A stretch of DNA of 14,889 nt from Patescibacteria group bacterium (lineage in GTDB: Bacteria; Patescibacteriota; Patescibacteriia; UBA2591; PGYQ01), in assembly GCA_020057535.1 (NCBI GenBank), contig JAGVFS010000083.1, forward strand, positions 1 through 14,889, given 5' to 3'. Each line of letters opens with the position of its first letter. Position 1 is the stretch's first letter. The translations under genes and the position numbers were made by a program. Of the stretch, positions 5,857-14,889 are shown in pieces. The notes under the pieces are model-generated. The model was not told the origin of the DNA. It saw nothing but the letters and a program-made list of their open reading frames with translations, and did not search any database.

Positions 5857-5912
5857 GATTTTTACATTTTTAATTGTCATTTTGCATTTTGATCTTTTAT
5901 TTTGCATTTTTT
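5857..5912 (+). repeat. T-rich 7-bp periodic leader running into the rpoD ATG
   Basis: Eight 7-nt blocks (for example CATTTTG, CATTTTG, ATCTTTT) can be laid end to end from 5857 to 5912, the last ending exactly at the ATG at 5913. The periodicity resembles the array ahead of dnaG. The leader contains no SD. The rest of 5704-5856 is AT-rich with no gene visible. Confidence 0.45.
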
Positions 5913-7133
5913 ATGAAAAAAAAACTTAATAAAAAAAATAAACAAAAAGTTAGACGATCTTTTTGTGTTAAAAAAAACAAAAAAATCATTCTTCAAAAAA
6001 CAAACAAATCTCTAGATGATAAAAAAATAGAAAAAAAAATAAAATTAGCTTCTTGGCCAGAAGAAGAAGAAAATAAAATAATAGCAAAAGGAAAAATGAG
6101 AGGATTTCTTACGGAAAATGAAATTTTATACGCTTTTCCAAATTTAGAAGATTATATCTCGGAATATGAAAATTTTTTAATAAAATTAGAAAAAAACGCC
6201 ATTCAAATAATTAAAGGGAAAGAAGGATTTTTTTCTCAAATTTTAGAAGAGGGAAAAAATGCAAAAGAAAATAAAAAAATTCCTCAAAAAACATCTATTT
6301 TAGAATCTATTTCATTTGATTCTATTCAAATGTACTTAAAGGAAATAAATAAAACCCCTCTTTTAACCTCAGAGGAAGAAGTTTATTGGGCTAAACAATT
6401 AGAAAAAGGTGATCAAGTAGCACAAAAAAAATTAGTTGAATCTAATTTAAGATTAGTGGTTAGTATTGCTAAAAAATATATTGGTCGTAATTTATCTTTT
6501 TTAGATTTAATTCAAGAAGGAAATATTGGTTTATTTCGAGCAGTAGAAAAATTTGATTATCGAAAAGGTTATAAATTTTCTACCTATGCTACCTGGTGGA
6601 TTAGACAAGCAATAACCAGGGCTTTAGCCGATCAATCAAGAACCATTCGTTTGCCAGTACATATAGTAGAAACTATTAATAAATTTCATCAAATTGAACG
6701 CAGTTTAATTCAAGATTTAGGACGAGAACCTTTACCTAAAGAAATTGCCACAGAAATGGAAGAAAAATTAGATAAAGTTTTTCATATCATTAAAATTTCT
6801 CAAGATACTATTTCCCTAGAAACTTCTGTTGGAGATGATGATAGCGACAGCACTTTAGAAGATTTTCTTGAAGATGTTAAAGCAATATCTCCAGACAAAG
6901 CAGCAGCAATGAAATTACTTAAAGAATATATAAAAGAAATTTTAAATGAATTAACCCCTCGAGAACAAAAAATTTTAGAAATGCGATTTGGCTTAACTGA
7001 AGACGGTTCTCATACTTTAGAAGAAGTTGGTTATGAGTTTGGCGTGACTAGAGAAAGAATTAGACAAATTGAAACAAAAGCTTTGTCTAAAATTAGACAA
7101 CATAAAGACATGATAAAATTAAAAGACTATTAA
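5913..7133 (+). CDS. rpoD: Primary RNA polymerase sigma factor (sigma70/SigA)
   Basis: A 406-residue housekeeping sigma factor that directs RNA polymerase to -35/-10 promoters. A region 1.1-like segment ([19 protein letters not shown]) follows a very Lys-rich N-terminus. Region 1.2 is [17 protein letters not shown]. Regions 2.1-2.4 include [35 protein letters not shown] and the -10-recognising helix. Region 3 follows, and region 4 contains [15 protein letters not shown] and the helix-turn-helix [19 protein letters not shown]. Having all regions marks it as the primary, not an alternative, sigma. The open frame extends upstream to a TTG at 5874, but those 13 residues are hydrophobic and fall in the T-rich leader, so ATG 5913 is preferred. 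The stop is followed by the left end of an insertion sequence. Confidence 0.95.
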
Positions 7134-7136
7134 TAA

Positions 7137-7663
7137 CTAAACTTTGGCAAATTTCTTGAAATATGAGATAATATAAAAATATGAATATTCCAATTTTACA
7201 AATACCCAAAGATATTCAAATATTTTGCCAAAACTATAAAAATAATTTCAGCGTGCCGCAATTTAAACACTTTGAAAATTTTATTACAGGGATAATTATT
7301 AATGATAAAGCTGATATTTATACTTTAAGCAAAGGATTTGAACAAGGTAGACATTACGATAGTTTGCATCATTTTGTTTCTGAGAGTGATTGGAATATGG
7401 AAGAAATTATGAAAACTTCCATATCGGTTATTAAACATTTACCAGATGAAAGCAAAAGATTTTCTTTTAAAGGGTGGTTAATAATAGATGATTCTTTGAT
7501 TGAAAAATTTGGAAAAATGATGGAAGCCGTTAGTAAACAATATGATCATACAGAGCAAAGATATTTTAAATACGCTCACTGTCTAGTCGCGCTTATTTAT
7601 GCAGATAAAAATGGAAACCGTTATCCTTTAAAATTTGATCTTTATCAAACTGAAGATGATTGT
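7137..7663 (+). mobile_element. Truncated insertion sequence (left end plus partial transposase)
   Basis: The left terminal repeat, ACTAAACTTTGGCAAA (7136-7151), begins 2 nt after the rpoD stop and matches the ends of the two MITE-like elements at 3109 and 5581. It is followed by a transposase promoter and the first ~160 codons of a DDE transposase. No right terminal repeat occurs before 7950, and coding similarity switches to an aminoacyl-tRNA synthetase tail at about 7660-7690, so the right half has been lost by deletion or recombination. The precise junction is an inference. Confidence 0.6.
7144..7172 (+). promoter_or_regulatory. Transposase promoter within the IS left end
   Basis: TTGGCA (7144-7149), 17 nt, then GATAAT (7167-7172): each hexamer matches consensus at five of six positions. 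The -35 box is part of the terminal inverted repeat. The -10 box ends 8 nt before the ATG at 7181, so the transposase mRNA is probably leaderless. Confidence 0.55.
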
Positions 7664-7720
7664 CAAGAAATAACGGATTCGCTAGTTCGACAAAATATAA
7701 AATCAGAATATTACGAATGA
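7181..7720 (+). CDS. Truncated DDE transposase (IS701/IS4-like) fused to a synthetase remnant
   Basis: A 179-residue frame. Residues ~1-160 look like the N-terminal half of a DDE transposase: LHHFVSESDWNMEEI (62-76) resembles the conserved 'FvsespWd' stretch of IS701-type enzymes, and WLIIDDSLIEKFGK (99-112) contains the first catalytic Asp. YDHTEQR and HCLVALIYADKNGNRYPL continue the catalytic core. The second Asp and the Glu are missing, so it cannot be active. From about residue 162 the sequence fits better with an asparaginyl-tRNA synthetase C-terminus, which continues in the same frame beyond the TGA at 7718-7720. Family assignment to IS701/DDE_5 is from motif resemblance only. Confidence 0.6.
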   Translation: MNIPILQIPKDIQIFCQNYKNNFSVPQFKHFENFITGIIINDKADIYTLSKGFEQGRHYDSLHHFVSESDWNMEEIMKTSISVIKHLPDESKRFSFKGWLIIDDSLIEKFGKMMEAVSKQYDHTEQRYFKYAHCLVALIYADKNGNRYPLKFDLYQTEDDCQEITDSLVRQNIKSEYYE

Positions 7721-7870
7721 TATATAAATTTACGAAAACTTCCAAACTATAAAACAACTTCTGGCTTTGGATTGGGAATAGAAAGATTCATCACTTGGAG
7801 CTTGTATCGCGATGATATTAAAGATGCAATTTTATATCCAAGATTAAAAAACATTAAGACATATCCTTAA
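7664..7870 (+). pseudogene. asnS: C-terminal remnant of an asparaginyl-tRNA synthetase-like gene
   Basis: After the TGA at 7718-7720 the same frame continues YINLRKLPNY, then SGFGLGIERFITW and DIKDAILYPR, ending at TAA 7868-7870. This is class II synthetase motif 3 (GFGLGIER) and the C-terminus of the AsnRS subgroup; AspRS differs at GGIAFGLDR. The residue expected at the TGA is the Trp of the AsnRS 'Y-x-WYLDLR' motif, so a TGG to TGA change is the simplest explanation. Everything upstream of about residue -18 relative to that Trp has been replaced by transposase sequence. It is non-functional as a synthetase. The G+C is higher than in the left-hand genes, like the cassette downstream. Confidence 0.6.
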
Positions 7871-7876
7871 GAATAT

Positions 7877-7937
7877 AAGGAGTTTTTGATTTTGGGCAGA
7901 GGGGTTAGGGGTGAATGCCCAAAATCAAAAACGCCTT
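7877..7937 (+). terminator. Strong hairpin terminator between convergent units
   Basis: A 22-bp stem, 7877-7898 pairing with 7916-7937, with one mismatch (A7881/G7933), encloses a 17-nt loop; the inner 17 bp, GTTTTTGATTTTGGGCA and its complement, are perfect. TTTTT follows on the plus strand, so it is a Rho-independent terminator for the asnS-like remnant. It also lies just beyond the stop of the minus-strand methyltransferase and probably ends the cassette transcript too, though the U-tract on that side is weaker. The loop is G-rich (GAGGGGTTAGGGGTG). Confidence 0.85.
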
Positions 7938-7949
7938 TTTGAATTTTAA

Positions 7950-8633
7950 CTATCTTTTCCTTCCTAAATACGACCAAAATATTTGAGGTTTATACGATGT
8001 CGGGTTTGGAAGCGGCAAATTATTAAAGAGATAGAGGTGCTCGGTGATAAAATATAGATAGAAATTATTATATATATCATCAGACGAAAGCCTGATAGGC
8101 CCGTCATTAGTTGGAGAAGGAATCATTCTATTTGAGAAAGAACGTAAGAAAAAAATCCCCTCTCTTTTTAAAAGAGATGCTACTTTTTCTGCATATTTGT
8201 TTCTATCTGCTATCGGAACATGGTGGAAACATCCTTGGTCAAAAATAAAATCAAAAGTTCCCTTAAGCCCTTTTTCTTCTAGTTTCAGAAAATCACAACA
8301 AATAAAATTCACATCAGCTCCTACGAGTTTTGCATATTTCTTAGCTACCTCTATTGTTTTAGGAATAAAGTCAATGCCGGTAACGTTCATGCCATGCTTC
8401 GCTAAAAAGCAAGATTCAACGCCGATACTGCATCCAACCTCAAGGACTTTCATGCCAGGTGAAATTACCCGATCTTTTAAGAGCCTTTGAAGCTCTGTCC
8501 CAACTGCTAATGTGATCCATGGCGTATTCGTAAGATCCATTTTATTTTCTTGTTTTTTGTCAAAAAATTTCTTTACGCTATCTAAATTTGATTGCAATAA
8601 AAAATTTTCAAAATTTTCTTGTGGTTTTTCCAT
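7950..8633 (-). CDS. Class I SAM-dependent methyltransferase
   Basis: A 227-residue soluble protein with a Rossmann methyltransferase fold. Motif I is VLEVGCSIG (63-71), the acidic residue that binds the SAM ribose is D88 in TGIDF, motif II-like CCDF lies at 112-115, and FDFIFDQGCFHHV (127-139) is the post-motif strand typical of small-molecule methyltransferases. The acceptor is not predictable. It is the last gene of the minus-strand cassette, 16 nt after the radical SAM gene, and ends (TAG) 12 nt from the shared terminator. No SD precedes the ATG. Base composition is like the rest of the cassette and unlike rpoD or dnaG. The partnership suggests it methylates a cassette product (O-, N- or C-methylation). 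Confidence 0.85.
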   Translation of the reverse strand: MEKPQENFENFLLQSNLDSVKKFFDKKQENKMDLTNTPWITLAVGTELQRLLKDRVISPGMKVLEVGCSIGVESCFLAKHGMNVTGIDFIPKTIEVAKKYAKLVGADVNFICCDFLKLEEKGLKGTFDFIFDQGCFHHVPIADRNKYAEKVASLLKREGIFFLRSFSNRMIPSPTNDGPIRLSSDDIYNNFYLYFITEHLYLFNNLPLPNPTSYKPQIFWSYLGRKR

Positions 8634-8649
8634 ATTAAGATTAATTTAA

Positions 8650-9654
8650 TTATTTTAATTTAATTATTGTATACAAATTAATGGGACACTTTTCACAATA
8701 AAAGAACAAATTTTCTCTAAAATCATCAAATTTTTTACTCTGCCATATTTCCGTGAAAGATGTGTTGAATAAATTTCCCATTATTGGTTCGTGCGTATAT
8801 TCGACAGCATTGCAAGGATGAACATCTCCGTTTGCAAGAATTAAGGCGAACCACTGAGGCCTAGTACACTTTTTTAATTTTTGACTTTTGGGTCGATATA
8901 ATCCGTTCGCCCAATCGGCATCAGATATTCTTTTAGAAAAGAGATTTTTCAGTGCGAACTCATTCTCGTTGCTGTTTTTTTCTGGCAAACCGGAAATTTC
9001 GTTCAAACAATCTTTAATAATTTTGTCTCGGAAATTTAAAATTTCGTTAATGTCTAACTGTAACTCCTGGTTAAAATCACCCTCTAAGTAAGATATTGCC
9101 ATTTCAGATACTCCTAACTCTCTATTTAATTTTATCAAACCTGGGATATGTTTATAATTATTTTTGTTTATCAATGTTTGGGTTTTTATTTTAAAATCAG
9201 GAAATTTTTCTTGCAAATTAGAAAAAATTCTTATTGTATTTACAGCGCTTTGCCATAATCCATGTTTATTTCTCATTTTATCGTGTATATCGGGTTTGTG
9301 GCTATATAGCGAAACATAAACGCTGTTTAATCCAGCATTAACCATGTCCACAGCTTTATCTGTAGTTAAAACACTGCCGTTGGTATTTATATTGACAAAA
9401 CAATTTCTGTTTTTACCTGCCTTAACTAATTCCAGAAGGCCGGGGAAAAGAGTTGGCTCACCTCCGCTTATATCGATTCTTTCCAAACCCAAAGAAATAG
9501 CTTCATCGAAAATTTTTTGCCAATCTTGAACATTAAGATTATTTTTCCCCAACAGGCTCCTATGCAGAAGTTTCCTTGTTCCACAAGTGGAACAATTCGC
9601 CGTGCAGGCAAATGTCGGCTTTATTACAAGGTGTTTTATTTTGTATATATTCAT
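8650..9654 (-). CDS. Radical SAM protein with C-terminal SPASM-like cluster domain
   Basis: A 334-residue protein. The N-terminal radical SAM motif is C17-x3-C21-x2-C24, which ligates the [4Fe-4S] cluster that cleaves SAM; GGEP (64-67) binds the SAM methionine, and the TIM-barrel strands NINTNG and VYVSLYS follow. The C-terminal part has C263, C281 and C320-x2-C323 (CTRP, HPCN, CEKC), with the 'NGDVHPC...GNL...EIW' pattern of SPASM/Twitch auxiliary-cluster domains. Such enzymes perform peptide modification, sugar dehydrogenation or cofactor chemistry; no precursor peptide gene is visible nearby. It lies 7 nt behind lysS and 16 nt before the methyltransferase, so the three are surely co-transcribed. 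The substrate is unknown. Confidence 0.9.
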   Translation of the reverse strand: MNIYKIKHLVIKPTFACTANCSTCGTRKLLHRSLLGKNNLNVQDWQKIFDEAISLGLERIDISGGEPTLFPGLLELVKAGKNRNCFVNINTNGSVLTTDKAVDMVNAGLNSVYVSLYSHKPDIHDKMRNKHGLWQSAVNTIRIFSNLQEKFPDFKIKTQTLINKNNYKHIPGLIKLNRELGVSEMAISYLEGDFNQELQLDINEILNFRDKIIKDCLNEISGLPEKNSNENEFALKNLFSKRISDADWANGLYRPKSQKLKKCTRPQWFALILANGDVHPCNAVEYTHEPIMGNLFNTSFTEIWQSKKFDDFRENLFFYCEKCPINLYTIIKLK

Positions 9655-9661
9655 TTTGAAA

Positions 9662-11152
9662 TTATTTATCTGGCTTAAGTAATGGAAACATCACAACGTC
9701 ACGTAAATTTGGTTGTTGTGTCAAGAGTGCAACTATTCTATCAATGCCCATTCCCCAGCCTGACACCGGAGGTATTCCATATTCCATAGCCTCAACAAAT
9801 TCGTCGTCTTTAAGCATTGCTTCTTCGTCCCCATGTTTTCGCATATCCATTTGTTTTTCAAATCTTTCTTTTTGATCAACCGGATCAATCAGTTCGCTAT
9901 ACGCATTAACTATTTCCCATCCATTTATAATCAATTGAAACCGATCAGTTACCATAGGATTATCATCGTTTCTTCTAGCCAATGGAGAAATATCTATCGG
10001 ATGATGAATTAGAAAAGTTGGTTCAATAATTTTCTCTCGCGAAACCGCTTTGTATAATGCATCTATAAGATTTCCTCGGCCAAGACTCTCAATTTTATCA
10101 ATAGAAATTTTCTTCTCCTTAATAATATTTTTTAATTCTTTAACGTCGGGGAACTCGTCAATATCGATTCCGCAGTCCTGCAAAATTAAATTCTTAAAGG
10201 AAACCGTTTTCCAGGGCAACGAAAGATCAACTTTTACTAATTCTCCTTTACGGTTCAATATTTCTATTTTTAATTCCCCCTTTATTTTCTTTATAATCTC
10301 AGCTAACATTTGCTCTGTAAAACGCATATTCATTTTATAATCCCAATAAGCGCAATAATGCTCCACCATAGTAAAATCCTGCAGATGACTTGGATCCACC
10401 CCCTCGTTGCGGAATGATCTAGCTACCTCATAGATTTTCTCAAAACCGCCGATTATTGCTTCTTTAAGATATATTTCTGGCGCAATTCTCAAATAGACAT
10501 CATTGCCGTAAGCGTTATGATGAGATTTAAACGGTTTGGCCAAAGCTCCAGAAGGGGTATTGCAAAGAATAGGAGTTTCGACTTCTATAAAACCATTATC
10601 ATGATAATGGTTTCTGAGCTCCCACAAAAACCTACTCCTTATTATAAATCTTTTTTTAGTTTCTTCATTCATTATTAGATCCAAATATCTTTTTCTATAT
10701 TTCAATTCCGTATCTTTTATTCCATGCCATTTTTCCGGAAGCGGCCTCATGGCTTTACTTAAGAATTCATATTTTTTAACCATAATGGAAATTTCCCCTT
10801 TTTTTGTCACAAAAACTTCTCCCTCTACACCGAGGAAATCTCCCATATTTAGAAAGTTTAATATTGTTTTATATTCTACCTTCCCTATAACATCCTCTTT
10901 AAATATAATCTGTACCCTACCGTAAAAATCTTGCAGATGAGCGAAAGTAATTTTACCCATATCCCTTAGCAAAACAACTCTTCCTGCAGACTTAACTCTG
11001 GCTCCTACGGCCATTTTTTTAATTTGATCTAAAGCCGTCTCTTTATTATATTTCGATCCGAATGGAATAATTTTTTTCTCTCTCATCAGTTTAATGATTT
11101 CTATACGGTTTCTTCTTTCATTATTAAGATTAGTCTCTTTATTATTTTGCAT
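9662..11152 (-). CDS. lysS: Class II lysyl-tRNA synthetase
   Basis: A 496-residue enzyme, the family's normal length, that charges tRNA-Lys with lysine. An N-terminal OB-fold anticodon-binding domain (about 50-135, with GRVVLLRDMGKITFAHLQD) is followed by the class II catalytic core: motif 1 ending GFIEVETP (187-194), motif 2 FRNEGVDPSHLQDFTMVE (247-264) and motif 3 GWGMGIDRI (465-473). YLRIAPEIYLK and the C-terminal FPLLKP are LysRS-specific. All catalytic motifs look intact, so it should be active. It is the central gene of the cassette, 10 nt after the phosphoribosyltransferase and 7 nt before the radical SAM gene. Whether it is the cell's only LysRS, or a second copy supplying lysyl-tRNA or lysyl-AMP to the cassette pathway, cannot be told from this window. 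Confidence 0.95.
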   Translation of the reverse strand: MQNNKETNLNNERRNRIEIIKLMREKKIIPFGSKYNKETALDQIKKMAVGARVKSAGRVVLLRDMGKITFAHLQDFYGRVQIIFKEDVIGKVEYKTILNFLNMGDFLGVEGEVFVTKKGEISIMVKKYEFLSKAMRPLPEKWHGIKDTELKYRKRYLDLIMNEETKKRFIIRSRFLWELRNHYHDNGFIEVETPILCNTPSGALAKPFKSHHNAYGNDVYLRIAPEIYLKEAIIGGFEKIYEVARSFRNEGVDPSHLQDFTMVEHYCAYWDYKMNMRFTEQMLAEIIKKIKGELKIEILNRKGELVKVDLSLPWKTVSFKNLILQDCGIDIDEFPDVKELKNIIKEKKISIDKIESLGRGNLIDALYKAVSREKIIEPTFLIHHPIDISPLARRNDDNPMVTDRFQLIINGWEIVNAYSELIDPVDQKERFEKQMDMRKHGDEEAMLKDDEFVEAMEYGIPPVSGWGMGIDRIVALLTQQPNLRDVVMFPLLKPDK

Positions 11153-11162
11153 ATTTTATAAT

Positions 11163-11642
11163 TTAATTTTGAACTTTTGAAAGTTTACCATCGCAAGCAA
11201 CGCGAATTAAACACTTAGCTTTTAGTCCGGTTTCTTTTTCAATTCTCTCCAACCCACCATACCCGATTTTTTCTGCAACTGCGACGATACTCAAAATACG
11301 AATGCCCGCGTTCCTTAATAGCTTAATCATCGCTATTAGTGTGCCTCCCGTGTCAATTATATCTTCAACTAAAATCACCCTGTCTCTTTTTTTTACGCCA
11401 TGCAAATACATTTTACCATGAGTATATGAATTTCTGAAATCTATGCACAAAGCCCCCCTTAGACCGGGCGGATTCCATTTAACTAGCGCTAGAGATTTTT
11501 TCAGTTTATACGCCATTAATGCGGCAATATAACCACCGCGATCTTCTTCTCCCACGATTTTATTTGCCTTATCAAAGTTTGTAGCCCCGGATAACTCCTT
11601 AACTACGTCCTCCAATAGTTTATAACAAGTTTCCGGCTTCAT
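11163..11642 (-). CDS. Phosphoribosyltransferase (type I, APRT/OPRT-like), 5' end frameshifted
   Basis: A 159-residue type I PRTase. The PRPP-binding loop VILVEDIIDTGGTL (89-102) has the two acidic residues followed by TGGT. An early GEEDRGGYIAA (31-41) resembles the 'GieaRGfilaa' region of adenine PRTases. Such enzymes join a base to PRPP or, in salvage, form nucleotides. The start given is the first ATG in this frame, but residues similar to the expected N-terminus lie upstream in the +1 frame (11643-11727), so the native start is probably ATG 11727. This start has no SD and overlaps the upstream frame. The gene ends 10 nt before lysS. The base specificity is unknown; the cassette context suggests a nucleotide-linked pathway. 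Confidence 0.75.
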   Translation of the reverse strand: MKPETCYKLLEDVVKELSGATNFDKANKIVGEEDRGGYIAALMAYKLKKSLALVKWNPPGLRGALCIDFRNSYTHGKMYLHGVKKRDRVILVEDIIDTGGTLIAMIKLLRNAGIRILSIVAVAEKIGYGGLERIEKETGLKAKCLIRVACDGKLSKVQN

Positions 11643-11727
11643 GATCGATCAACTTATTGATAATATATTTTCTGCCCTCTATTTTGATAACCGGTTGTCG
11701 GTCGAATGCTTTAATAATTTCTCTCAT
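11620..11727 (-). pseudogene. Out-of-frame N-terminal segment of the phosphoribosyltransferase
   Basis: From ATG 11727 a 35-codon frame reads MREIIKAFDRQPV, IEGRKYIINKLIDHE and then a short tail to a TAA at 11620-11622. The 'PVxxIxGxxYxxNxLxDH' pattern is what I would expect at the N-terminus of this PRTase type. If one G is removed around 11636-11638 the frame runs directly into PETCYKLLEDVV of the downstream ORF. With this start the gap to the glycosyltransferase stop is 10 nt, matching other cassette gaps; with the downstream start it is 95 nt. It is either a true 1-nt insertion, an assembly error or, less likely, a programmed frameshift. Confidence 0.6.
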
Positions 11728-11737
11728 TTTATATTTG

Positions 11738-12976
11738 TTAATTTTTAGTAGTTTGTAAAATTTTTTCGGAAACTGATTTCGCCCCCTTGAAGAATGGAAT
11801 AAACTTTCTGATAGCAGATTTCTGCATAGTCACTAAATTTTTCTTTTTGTTAAAATCGTTTACTATCTTTCGGAATTTTTCTTTGTACTCTTTACGAAAT
11901 TCCGTATCATCAAAATACTTATTTGTAAAATACCTTATCATGGCCATAGACTCGTCTATTTTTCTTATGTTTATAAGATCTGAACAACTTAAGGTAAATA
12001 GTAGATTTGGAAATACAGAATCTCTCTTATTTTTTATTTTTTCAGTAATTATTAAATACTCATAAACATGGCCGTTATGATTGTCGGGCAAAAATATAAG
12101 AGGTGTGTTTGAAGCCAATGATTCAAATATAGTGGTAAATCCGCATGGAACCAACACCACGATGGCTCTATTTATTTCTTTCAAGAATTGTTCATGGTTT
12201 AATGCCACAAGATTGAATAAAACTTTCTTATCAAATCTACTTCTTTTAATAATTTCAATTACGCTCGGGTGTCCAGTTAAAACAAAGCGCTTGGCTGAGG
12301 AAAAATTTTTTATTTCCTCTGATATCAGATCGATAATCATTTTGGCATATCTGACTGCGGTACTCAAATTAGTTACGGGAGAAATACCTCCGCTAAGCGA
12401 TACTAAAACAGTGTCTTTTTTACATTTTTTAGCAAAAGTTAAATCAATCATTGATCCAACATTTTCAACCTTATTTTTGGTTTCTCTTATAAACTGTGGC
12501 GTACCTTGAGTAAAAATTCTATCAGAGAAAAGATGCCCTAGCAGTTGCCTGTCATCCGGCATCATTCTGCGAATTATTTTTATTCCTTGGTTTGAATCCA
12601 GACGTTTCAACGATTCAAATTTTTTTAAAACCTGCTTACTGTTTTTCCATATCCAAAAACGACTCATGCTATCAGCGTAAAAAACAGGGGTATTACTTTT
12701 CTTCCCCATGAACGCCAAAAATGGATCCATCACCGACACCACGGCGTCATAATTTTTAAAGTTTATCTTTAGGTAATCTTTGTTCGATTTTACACAAAAA
12801 ACGTTAATAAAAGATCCTGTCTTTTTGCAAAAATCAAAAGATGTATCTACACCAACAAAATCCACTAATGCACCTTGTTTTTTTAGTTCATGTCCAATAG
12901 CAGACGCTTTTCCTGCTGGTCCATAAGCCCATGATTGAGCGCCAACTAGAATTTTAGTTTTTTTATATTTTTTCAT
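11738..12976 (-). CDS. GT-B fold glycosyltransferase-like protein
   Basis: A 412-residue protein with a two-domain GT-B layout (MurG/UGT-like). The N-terminal Rossmann domain starts KILVGAQSWAYGPAGKASA (8-26), a Gly-rich acceptor-side loop followed by helix 'IGHELKKQGA'. The C-terminal domain starts with the beta-strand LVSLSGGISP (191-200), typical of the nucleotide-sugar binding half, and carries PCGFTTIFESLASNTPLIF (277-295), where a conserved Glu normally contacts the donor ribose. No signal peptide or membrane segment is evident, though the C-terminus is basic and could sit at the membrane. Donor and acceptor are unknown. It is the first gene of the minus-strand cassette, 353 bp from atpA. 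No SD precedes the ATG. Confidence 0.7.
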   Translation of the reverse strand: MKKYKKTKILVGAQSWAYGPAGKASAIGHELKKQGALVDFVGVDTSFDFCKKTGSFINVFCVKSNKDYLKINFKNYDAVVSVMDPFLAFMGKKSNTPVFYADSMSRFWIWKNSKQVLKKFESLKRLDSNQGIKIIRRMMPDDRQLLGHLFSDRIFTQGTPQFIRETKNKVENVGSMIDLTFAKKCKKDTVLVSLSGGISPVTNLSTAVRYAKMIIDLISEEIKNFSSAKRFVLTGHPSVIEIIKRSRFDKKVLFNLVALNHEQFLKEINRAIVVLVPCGFTTIFESLASNTPLIFLPDNHNGHVYEYLIITEKIKNKRDSVFPNLLFTLSCSDLINIRKIDESMAMIRYFTNKYFDDTEFRKEYKEKFRKIVNDFNKKKNLVTMQKSAIRKFIPFFKGAKSVSEKILQTTKN

Positions 12977-12996
12977 GCTGTGTTGATATAATTGAA

Positions 12997-13074
12997 TTAG
13001 CGAAAATATTTGGTAGAATAAATAAAAAATAATAAAATTAATAAATCGTTTTCGTAGCGGAGCAGAGAAAACAC
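12997..13074 (-). CDS. Possible 25-residue leader peptide ahead of the cassette
   Basis: A GTG at 13074-13072 starts a 25-codon frame ending at TAA 12997-12999, 20 nt before the glycosyltransferase ATG. It is preceded by AGAGGGG about 7 nt upstream, the only SD-like sequence in a good position in the whole window. The predicted peptide is hydrophobic in the middle (DLLILLFFIY). This could be a small membrane peptide or leader ORF, or chance. Confidence 0.2.
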   Translation of the reverse strand: MFSLLRYENDLLILLFFIYSTKYFR

Positions 13075-13128
13075 CTTATTACCCCTCTTAAATTAATAAA
13101 AAAGAAATTTTTAAATTTTTTAAAACAA

Positions 13129-13144
13129 TTGGGCGATAGCCCAA
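13129..13144 (-). terminator. Hairpin terminator between atpA and the cassette
   Basis: TTGGGC and GCCCAA flank a 4-nt GATA/TATC loop. On the minus strand the hairpin is followed by TTGTTTT, a usable U-tract. It would stop readthrough from atpA (stop 185 nt upstream) or end a short transcript started at the promoter near 13255. A 6-bp stem is modest. Confidence 0.5.
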
Positions 13145-13191
13145 AAAAGGAAAGGAATATTTCAGCTAACTCGTTTTTATATAAACTAAAT

Positions 13192-13223
13192 GTATAATAT
13201 CGACCTTTTGTTGCATATTATAC
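13192..13223. repeat. Nine-bp perfect inverted repeat
   Basis: GTATAATAT (13192-13200) and ATATTATAC (13215-13223) are exact complements around a 14-nt loop. It lies between the palindromic promoter and the terminator hairpin, and could form a stem in a minus-strand transcript or be a protein site. The arms contain only AT pairs plus one GC, so RNA stability would be low. Confidence 0.4.
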
Positions 13224-13231
13224 GAACTTAA

Positions 13232-13286
13232 TTGTTGACTAACGATACGTTAGAATTATACTACCTAATGTATCGTTAGCTAACAA
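13232..13286 (-). promoter_or_regulatory. Long palindromic promoter/operator (copy 2)
   Basis: Two 22-nt arms (13232-13253 and 13265-13286) form an imperfect palindrome around the 11-nt loop AATTATACTAC. Within it are two 15-bp dyads of the form CTAACG-N3-CGTTAG (13239-13253, exact; 13265-13279, one change), centred 26 bp apart. The loop contains TATAAT on the minus strand (13260-13255), with TTAGCT 17 nt upstream (13283-13278). On the plus strand TTGACT (13235-13240) and TATACT (13257-13262) are 16 nt apart, so the site might fire in both directions. About 36 bp match copy 1 at window start with two changes. The minus direction leads to the cassette, but a terminator hairpin intervenes at 13129. 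Confidence 0.6.
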
Positions 13287-13329
13287 CTAATAAAATAAAT
13301 TTTATTTTTTTATTTTTGCCTATTTAATT

Positions 13330-14883
13330 TTATAAATTAAATCTCTTTTTAAATTCTTTAATTGCATCTCTTAATTTTTTATCAATTTCTTCAGTTAGTT
13401 CTTTTTTTTCTTTAATTTCATCTAATAATTCTTTTTGTTCTAATTTGAAATATTCAAGAATTTTTTTCTCGAATTCTTTAATTTTATCAACAGAAATATC
13501 ATCAAGAAATCCTTGGGTTGCGGAAAAAATTACTACCACTTGATATTCAGTTGGCATTGGTTCATATTGTCCTTGTTTTAAAATTTCAGTCAAACGTTTT
13601 CCTCGTTCAATTTGCTTTCTTGTTGTTTCATCTAAATCTTGCCCAAATTGAGCAAACGCGGCCAATTCTCTAAATTGAGCGAGTTCAAGTCGTAATTTTC
13701 CAGCGATTTTTTTTATAGCTTTGGTTTGAGCTGACGATCCAACACGAGAAACTGAAAGACCGACATTTACCGCTGGTCGAATTCCTTGATAAAATAAATC
13801 GCTTTCTAAATAAATTTGTCCATCAGTAATTGAAATAACATTTGTTGGAATATAAGCTGAAACATCTCCGGCTTGCGTCTCAATAATTGGCAAAGCGGTT
13901 AATGAACCTCCACCATTTTTTTCATCTAATCTACAAGCGCGTTCTAAAAGTCTTGAGTGTAAATAAAAAACATCTCCTGGATACGCTTCTCGTCCTGGCG
14001 GTCTACGAAGTAATAAAGAAATTTGTCGATACGCCCAAGCATGTTTTGATAAATCATCGTAAATTATTAAAACATCTTTTCCTTGATCCATAAAATATTC
14101 TCCAATCGCGCAACCTGAATATGGAGCAATAAATTGCAAAGAAGCCGGTTCAGAAGCAGAAGTTGTTACTATAACAGTATATTCCATAGCTCCCTTTTCT
14201 TCTAACTTTGCCACAATTTTAGCAATTTTTGATTCTTTTTGACCAATGGCTACATAAATACAAATTGGTCTCATTTCTTGTGAAACTGATTTTTGATTTA
14301 TTATCGCATCAATTACTAAAGCTGTTTTTCCTGTTTGTCGATCTCCAATAATTAATTCTCTTTGTCCTCGACCAATTGGAATCATTGAATCAATCGCTTT
14401 AATCCCAGTTTGTAAGGGAACGTTAACAGATTTTCTATCAATAACGCCAGGAGCGATTTTTTCAATTGGATAAAATTTTTCTGAATTAATTTCCCCTCGT
14501 TCATCAATAGGCCTACCTAAAGCATTTACAATTCTACCAATTAAATTATTACTAACCGGTATTTCTAAAATTTTTCCAGTTGATTTTACAATATCTCCCT
14601 CTTTAATATTCTCATATTCTCCTAAAACAATAACCCCGACTAAATCTTGCTCTAAATTTAAAACAACTCCATAAATCCCGCCTTCTTTAGAATGTCTTAA
14701 CGACGCGGGATAAATTTGATTTTGAAATTCTACCATTTCACTCATTTTCACATCAGAAAGACCAGATATTTTCGCAATCCCATCTCCCACTTCTAAAACA
14801 ATCCCAGTTTTTTCAATAGAAATTTCCGATTCAAATTTTTCTATTTGTTTTTTTAAAGTTTGAATAATATAATCTTTGTCCAT
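13330..14883 (-). CDS. atpA: F1F0 ATP synthase subunit alpha
   Basis: A 517-residue F1 alpha subunit, complete by family length. The N-terminal beta-barrel is followed by the nucleotide-binding domain with Walker A GDRQTGKT (180-187) and [14 protein letters not shown], the Walker B/alpha-specific stretch. [23 protein letters not shown] and the signature [13 protein letters not shown] with the arginine finger follow, then the helical C-terminal domain. Alpha subunits carry non-catalytic ATP sites in the alpha3beta3 ring of the membrane-bound synthase. The start ATG is 6 nt from the window edge, so atpH or atpF presumably lies beyond it. No atpG follows downstream as it does in almost all atp operons; instead come a regulatory region and the cassette. 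Base composition is AT-rich as in the left-hand genes. Confidence 0.97.
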
Positions 14884-14889
14884 AAAAAA

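Follow-up and report, generated by a model that had tools for sequence, protein, structure and literature searches.

We analyzed a 14,889-nt stretch of DNA from a Patescibacteria group bacterium (GenBank assembly GCA_020057535.1, contig JAGVFS010000083.1; the whole stretch is hereafter called the window), in which five open reading frames (ORFs), all on the minus strand at positions 7950–12976, lie between rpoD and atpA. These five genes, hereafter the cassette, are listed below with the ratio of nonsynonymous to synonymous substitution (dN/dS) between the window copy and a second copy found in Candidatus Falkowbacteria RIFOXYC2_FULL_36_12 (L005).

7950–8633, minus strand: class I S-adenosylmethionine (SAM)-dependent methyltransferase, by Pfam and NCBIfam (dN/dS 0.101)
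8650–9654, minus strand: radical SAM/SPASM enzyme (rSAM), with BlsE as the best VIA-align match (dN/dS 0.129)
9662–11152, minus strand: second full-length class II lysyl-tRNA synthetase (LysRS), of a cassette-linked clade and above the NCBIfam cut-off (dN/dS 0.069)
11163–11727, minus strand: purine-type phosphoribosyltransferase (PRTase; dN/dS 0.088 over a 159-codon core)
11738–12976, minus strand: GT-B glycosyltransferase (GT), a distant relative of TIGR04467 (dN/dS 0.142)

Comparison with other genomes indicated that the cassette has been transferred and has moved as one unit, a conclusion that is well supported. L005, which belongs to the same class as the window genome and to another order, carries the same five genes in identical order between different flanks; the check that the earlier note had offered as a possible refutation, whether this gene order is absent elsewhere, was run and found it present there. 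Across the five genes, dN/dS between the two copies is 0.07–0.14 (PRTase again over the 159-codon core) and dS is 0.33–0.47; L005 and G448:C2 were treated as one genome throughout. In addition, an empty site was found in the same-genus genome G626, where rpoD directly adjoins atpA. The limits of the insertion and of the shared block are as follows.

7146–13291, no strand: entire insertion separating rpoD from atpA; not present in G626 by blastn
7937–13170, minus strand: block shared with L005 (one high-scoring segment pair, 5,238 alignment columns, 90.5% identity)

By blastn, window positions 5893–7145 correspond to positions 1–1278 of L080 and window positions 13292–14889 to positions 1267–2823, and because these two L080 matches overlap by 12 bp the insertion edges are approximate. 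The empty site was seen in one of three same-genus genomes: in G584, rpoD and atpA are on separate contigs and other genes follow rpoD, and G591 yielded no atpA. As aligned in the search, the rpoD match of G626 (G626:C13:83-1264) contains two in-frame TAG codons, which may reflect an alignment edge or a real lesion.

The earlier note had described the five genes as co-directional, as they are, with gaps of 7–16 nt, which holds only in part: the measured gaps are 16, 7, 10 and 95 nt. Its hand-counted G+C of three 60-base lines (27, 12 and 13) was exact on recount. The difference in composition from both flanks that it drew from these counts stands for the left flank by overall G+C, fails for the right flank by that measure, and stands for both by third codon position. 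Overall G+C is 33.7% in the block, 24.3% in the left flank, 31.2% in the right flank and 31.9% in atpA, and it does not separate the cassette from the right (atpA) flank (60-base lines, P=0.33). By contrast, G+C at third codon positions is 30.8% in the cassette (1,633 codons) versus 14.3% in six flanking genes (2,396 codons; Fisher P=8e-36), atpA alone standing at 14.5%. No Rfam match was found within 7100–13400 at E up to 0.1, and PHROGs gave no specific match.

The GT and rSAM families are rare. A word-based search with GT, of a kind that misses distant relatives, gave a list of 33 proteins, the window's own included, from a database of 5.8 billion; the partial sequence P0032 was excluded from the GT alignment. 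When one genome per species (84,980 species) was scanned with two short peptide patterns from this alignment, L005 was the one confirmed locus; such a scan misses divergent copies, for example the second GT locus in the Falkowbacteria genome. Among 379 genomes of the phylum, the GT alignment gave three matches at E up to 1e-3, to the window genome (6e-199), to a divergent relative in G342 (1.5e-16) and to G008 (9e-4). A strong match was confined to the window genome among 26 genomes of its order, where G451 reached 1.6e-4, and to G448, with two matches, among 10 genomes of the latter's order; the near-threshold matches in G008 and G451 were excluded from the family. With E thresholds of 1e-40 for 380 class genomes and 1e-35 for the 379 phylum genomes, the rSAM family was found in three and in one of them, respectively.

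Where these genes do occur, they tend to occur together. Judging co-location from equal size of the longest contig, the contigs themselves not being read, we found among the matches listed 10 contigs with GT and LysRS, 6 with GT and rSAM, and 8 with rSAM and LysRS, and all three on 5 contigs (4416, 6065, 8567, 17019 and 22607). Shifting the contig sizes 100 times gave on average 0.16, 0.19 and 0.65 such pairings, and never more than 2, 2 and 3, respectively. Pairwise distances were also correlated between the proteins (r = 0.80, n = 8; r = 0.87, n = 12; r = 0.73, n = 10), and no more than 3 of 5,000 permutations reached these values; the 12 sequences of the GT test were 10 of the 33 listed GT relatives plus the window and L005. 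Such a correlation is expected for genes that move together, and shared ancestry alone gives it too. We conclude that the linkage of GT, rSAM and LysRS is well supported.

At a separate Falkowbacteria locus (L046:4737-12948, G448:C7), a second member of the GT family adjoins a second member of the rSAM family. The gene set there is a different one: it also comprises a B12-type radical SAM enzyme, a TrpB-like enzyme, two more radical SAM proteins and, by eye, a phosphatase-like gene, and is perhaps another small-molecule cluster. From the two gene sets we infer that the GT–rSAM pair would be the core and the remaining genes variable additions. Other relatives occur in other settings. A Patescibacteria cluster (L010:4277-18012, G342:C3) contains a distant GT-family member (hhalign 99.4%, no NCBIfam match) with, by eye, three DegT-type aminotransferase-like, several radical SAM, deacetylase-like and ITPase-like genes. 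An rSAM-family gene at L047:4900-9157 (G549:C9) lies beside a methyltransferase, a short GT-like gene (by eye, no family match) and an ATP sulfurylase/APS kinase-like gene (by eye).

In viral contigs, the GT alignment gave 13 pattern hits, none of which was confirmed, and the rSAM alignment gave two loci of weak similarity (about 100 residues at 29 and 38% identity); seven phage records had rSAM matches at 22–29% identity. Plasmids had no match to GT. The GT of the L048 locus, described below, matched six plasmid records (five Streptomyces, one Embleya) at 21–23% identity; of three inspected, two had no radical SAM gene listed within 12 kb in a gene table that is incomplete, and the third carries no annotation. 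Among the leading literature search results, no title or abstract opening dealt with this five-gene combination.

The cassette LysRS scores 526.3 bits against a TIGR00499 cut-off of 427.6 and has both the OB-fold anticodon domain (PF01336) and the catalytic domain (PF00152). It resembles bacterial class II LysRS in being full length, above the cut-off and with both domains, and differs in being a second, transferred copy in a GT/rSAM-linked clade. A second lysS, which the earlier note had suggested looking for, is indeed present: the window genome encodes another full-length LysRS on contig C74, 41% identical to the cassette copy, and the Falkowbacteria genome likewise encodes two (94% and 49% identity). 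At E up to 1e-40, 24 of the 26 order genomes had a LysRS match and two had none, and only the window genome had two. A LysRS tree was built from 146 sequences: the 120 listed out of 7,829 matches, those of the order genomes and E. coli, with L071 from G584 and the partial L072 left out. In it, the C74 LysRS, the housekeeping copy, paired with a same-genus LysRS (support 1.0). The cassette LysRS, the L005 LysRS and 13 contig-linked LysRS fell into one clade of 28 (support 0.84), which holds all 13 GT- or rSAM-linked LysRS among the 120 listed; several of the other members are named Patescibacteria. The tree, also proposed in that note, therefore places the cassette copy apart from housekeeping LysRS and not as the vertical copy. 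The duplication of LysRS is well supported.

GT had no Pfam match at E up to 0.001, and its predicted model has a GT-B fold. Its sole NCBIfam match below E 0.001 was TIGR04467, cytosylglucuronate synthase (BlsD/MilC). Homology was near full length (hhalign 99.5%, 349 columns) to A4, a TIGR04467-like set of three members scoring 60.4, 51.6 and 49.0 bits with that model, a comparison made without a true BlsD or MilC sequence. A search of the Protein Data Bank with the GT profile gave nothing below E 0.15. The best TIGR04467 match of the class sample (L048:1110-7632, G552:C7; 60.4 bits) lies near a cytidine deaminase and a methyltransferase-like gene (by eye).

In rSAM, CxxxCxxC (C17, C21 and C24) and GGEP (residues 64–67) are invariant in 58 aligned rows. 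Both motifs are reported to be required for BlsE activity (PMC3715490), and both are common to many radical SAM enzymes. The best VIA-align match of the predicted rSAM model was BlsE. GT and rSAM thus both appear to point, distantly, to the BlsD/BlsE pair of blasticidin synthesis, a link that is new here. As with BlsD/MilC and BlsE/MilG of blasticidin S and mildiomycin synthesis, a TIGR04467-matching GT-B enzyme lies in the cassette two genes from a radical SAM enzyme that best matches BlsE. By contrast, the cassette enzymes score far under the curated cut-offs, and their partners are a purine-type PRTase and a full-length LysRS. The known pairs come from Streptomyces, whereas the cassette comes from a Patescibacteria genome in which no nucleotide-sugar dehydrogenase was found. 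A blasticidin-type cluster also has a gene freeing cytosine from CMP and peptide-attachment genes; neither Pfam nor NCBIfam revealed any of these in the five genes, to which the search was confined. For the synthetase, the ascamycin cluster offers a parallel, as its extra alanyl-tRNA synthetase AcmD is described as both a supplier and a resistant copy (PMC12945691). Like AcmD, the cassette LysRS is an additional, complete synthetase that groups with ordinary ones in a small-molecule-like cluster. Unlike AcmD, it is for lysine and not alanine, no AcmF-like partner was recognized, and its resistance is putative.

Our preferred reading, which we consider about evenly poised between right and wrong, is that the cassette, having moved horizontally, encodes a mini-pathway whose product is a small, glycosylated, nucleoside-like compound; we infer both the product and the LysRS role. 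PRTase would handle the base, either consuming it with phosphoribosyl pyrophosphate or freeing it from a nucleotide, and GT would attach a nucleotide-activated sugar to this base, or to an acceptor like it, in the way that BlsD uses cytosine. BlsE acts directly after BlsD in blasticidin synthesis, and rSAM might remodel the sugar, as BlsE does by decarboxylation, after which the methyltransferase would cap the product and a lysine-related step would follow. LysRS may supply activated lysine (Lys-AMP or Lys-tRNA), may be a product-resistant copy, or perhaps both, like AcmD. Of the transferred pathway with a phosphoribosyl- or lysyl-linked intermediate that the earlier note had envisaged, the transferred, conserved cassette holds, and such an intermediate is hypothetical.

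Several results weigh against this pathway. By the curated rule neither enzyme is an ortholog: GT scores 33.8 bits against a TIGR04467 cut-off of 300, which was reached in none of the 380 class genomes, and rSAM scores 55.1 bits against a cut-off of 400 for TIGR04466 (BlsE, CGA decarboxylase). In a six-frame TIGR04467 search, the window GT (24.8 bits) ranked below G552 (59.8), G680 (26.3) and G487 (26.1), and the model does not distinguish it from weak GT matches in 41 of the 380 class genomes; those listed mostly cover the C-terminal part and were taken as MurG-like background, without a one-by-one test and with only G552 and G448 followed further. Moreover, 30 of 32 GT relatives also match the MJ1255 glycosyltransferase model. 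For rSAM, SuiB outranks BlsE by Foldseek E-value, the BlsE model is only rank 22 of 51 NCBIfam matches, and the BlsE sequence match spans only about residues 7–190. A search for a nucleotide-sugar dehydrogenase found none in the window's genome, which is 92.5% complete, whereas a match was found in the Falkowbacteria genome and in all 14 control genomes (13 over the cut-off); UDP-glucuronate would therefore have to be imported, maybe from a host, or another sugar used. Nor did Pfam or NCBIfam reveal a tRNA-dependent transferase, CMP hydrolase or exporter in the five genes. PRTase, purine-type by score and below cut-offs, has a broken frame in the window copy: the ORF at 11163–11642 is open and the 5′ part at 11643–11727 is in another frame. 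The window gene differs from that of L005 by one base of length near 11640, which places its first codons in another frame; in L005, PRTase starts 10 nt after GT, and the 95-nt gap in the window covers the original PRTase 5′ end. Finally, the linkage of PRTase and the methyltransferase is known from two genomes only.

The resistant-target role of LysRS is a serious alternative to lysyl supply. In its full form, the other four genes would make a LysRS inhibitor, for example a lysyl-nucleoside mimic, and the cassette LysRS would be an insensitive copy with no part in synthesis, which we regard as possible if somewhat improbable. The enzyme is complete and canonical, with its anticodon-binding domain, and is extra to another full-length copy in both genomes; in a biosynthetic LysRS that no longer charged tRNA, one would expect more decay. 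It is also the best conserved of the three linked genes (64–69% identity to the window copy, versus 44–65% for GT and 48–60% for rSAM, in the compared contigs, the close relative 4864 excluded), and SbzA and AcmD are given as precedents (PMC12945691). Because no aminoacyl-tRNA-using enzyme, transferases included, was recognized among the five genes, protection or direct use of lysyl-AMP is slightly favored. However, no sign of a resistance change was seen, as the 146-LysRS alignment has just one column that sets the cassette clade apart at 85%, where E. coli shares the cassette residue, and no inhibitor is known. Returning to the mini-pathway, its most specific version, which we put forward tentatively and think doubtful, is an undescribed class of mobile nucleoside-type cassettes with a BlsD/BlsE-like core, a purine-type PRTase, a methyltransferase and a LysRS that would be both lysyl supplier and resistant target, by which an episymbiont's lysyl-nucleoside would hit the LysRS or the ribosome of hosts or rivals.

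Modification of a cell-surface glycan or lipid, with GT and the methyltransferase decorating, rSAM altering the sugar and LysRS feeding lysylation, is decidedly unlikely: the five genes include no recognizable lysyl-lipid or lysyl-glycan transferase, flippase or lipid-carrier enzyme, and PRTase would have no obvious role. We consider a viperin-like anti-phage or nucleotide-modifying defense island very improbable. PADLOC matched rSAM to viperin models (best 61.9 bits), the methyltransferase to a MADS model (86.7 bits) and PRTase weakly to two models (17.4 and 16.0 bits), and a transposase remnant adjoins the block; however, we took these matches as superfamily-level, the NCBIfam viperin score of rSAM (NF038283) is 55.4 bits, under the cut-off of 180, and GT and LysRS had no match in PADLOC. 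That unrelated genes were gathered by chance through transposition is scarcely credible: the fragments of IS701 and of an asparaginyl-tRNA synthetase (AsnRS) beside the block do mark a rearranged site, but a second genome has the five genes arranged alike at 90.5% identity, dN/dS is low throughout the cassette, and GT, rSAM and LysRS still pair where GT identity has fallen to 44%, which largely refutes it for those three genes (contigs not read), while for PRTase and the methyltransferase the case rests on two genomes only.

The remaining features of the insertion are these fragments and a repeat.

7181–7720, plus strand: IS701-type transposase, 5′ fragment covering profile positions 4–146 of 363
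7721–7867, plus strand: AsnRS-like class II synthetase, C-terminal fragment (last 49 residues), in frame after the transposase stop
13228–13290, no strand: inverted repeat at the insertion's right end (arms of 26 nt, 85% complementarity)

All three lie in the insertion beyond the limits of the L005-shared block, and window positions 7181–7867 are a remnant of rearrangement at the insertion site. Between the arms of the inverted repeat is a TATAAT on the minus strand, which may belong to an operator or an element end. On the Falkowbacteria side (L005:682-834), the block starts about 80 nt past a tRNA-Cys gene. tRNA genes are common island sites; a repeat search around the block found no repeat of the tRNA end on the far side. 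Two GNAT acetyltransferase genes follow the cassette there, outside the shared block (L005:6147-7393).

Patescibacteria, or the candidate phyla radiation (CPR), are predicted symbionts, and the transferred five-gene block suggests that a small-molecule pathway can enter minimal, presumably host-dependent cells as a single unit. A soil survey calls biosynthetic clusters in CPR/Patescibacteria rarely reported and itself describes 110 peptide-type (LAP) clusters in 93 CPR genomes (PMC7298704). A compact cassette of non-LAP chemistry that includes its own synthetase copy, and for which an empty site and, in another order, a copy of 90% identity are known, would make chemical interactions of these cells testable: the duplicate LysRS is a direct clue to the product or its target, and five small genes suit heterologous expression.

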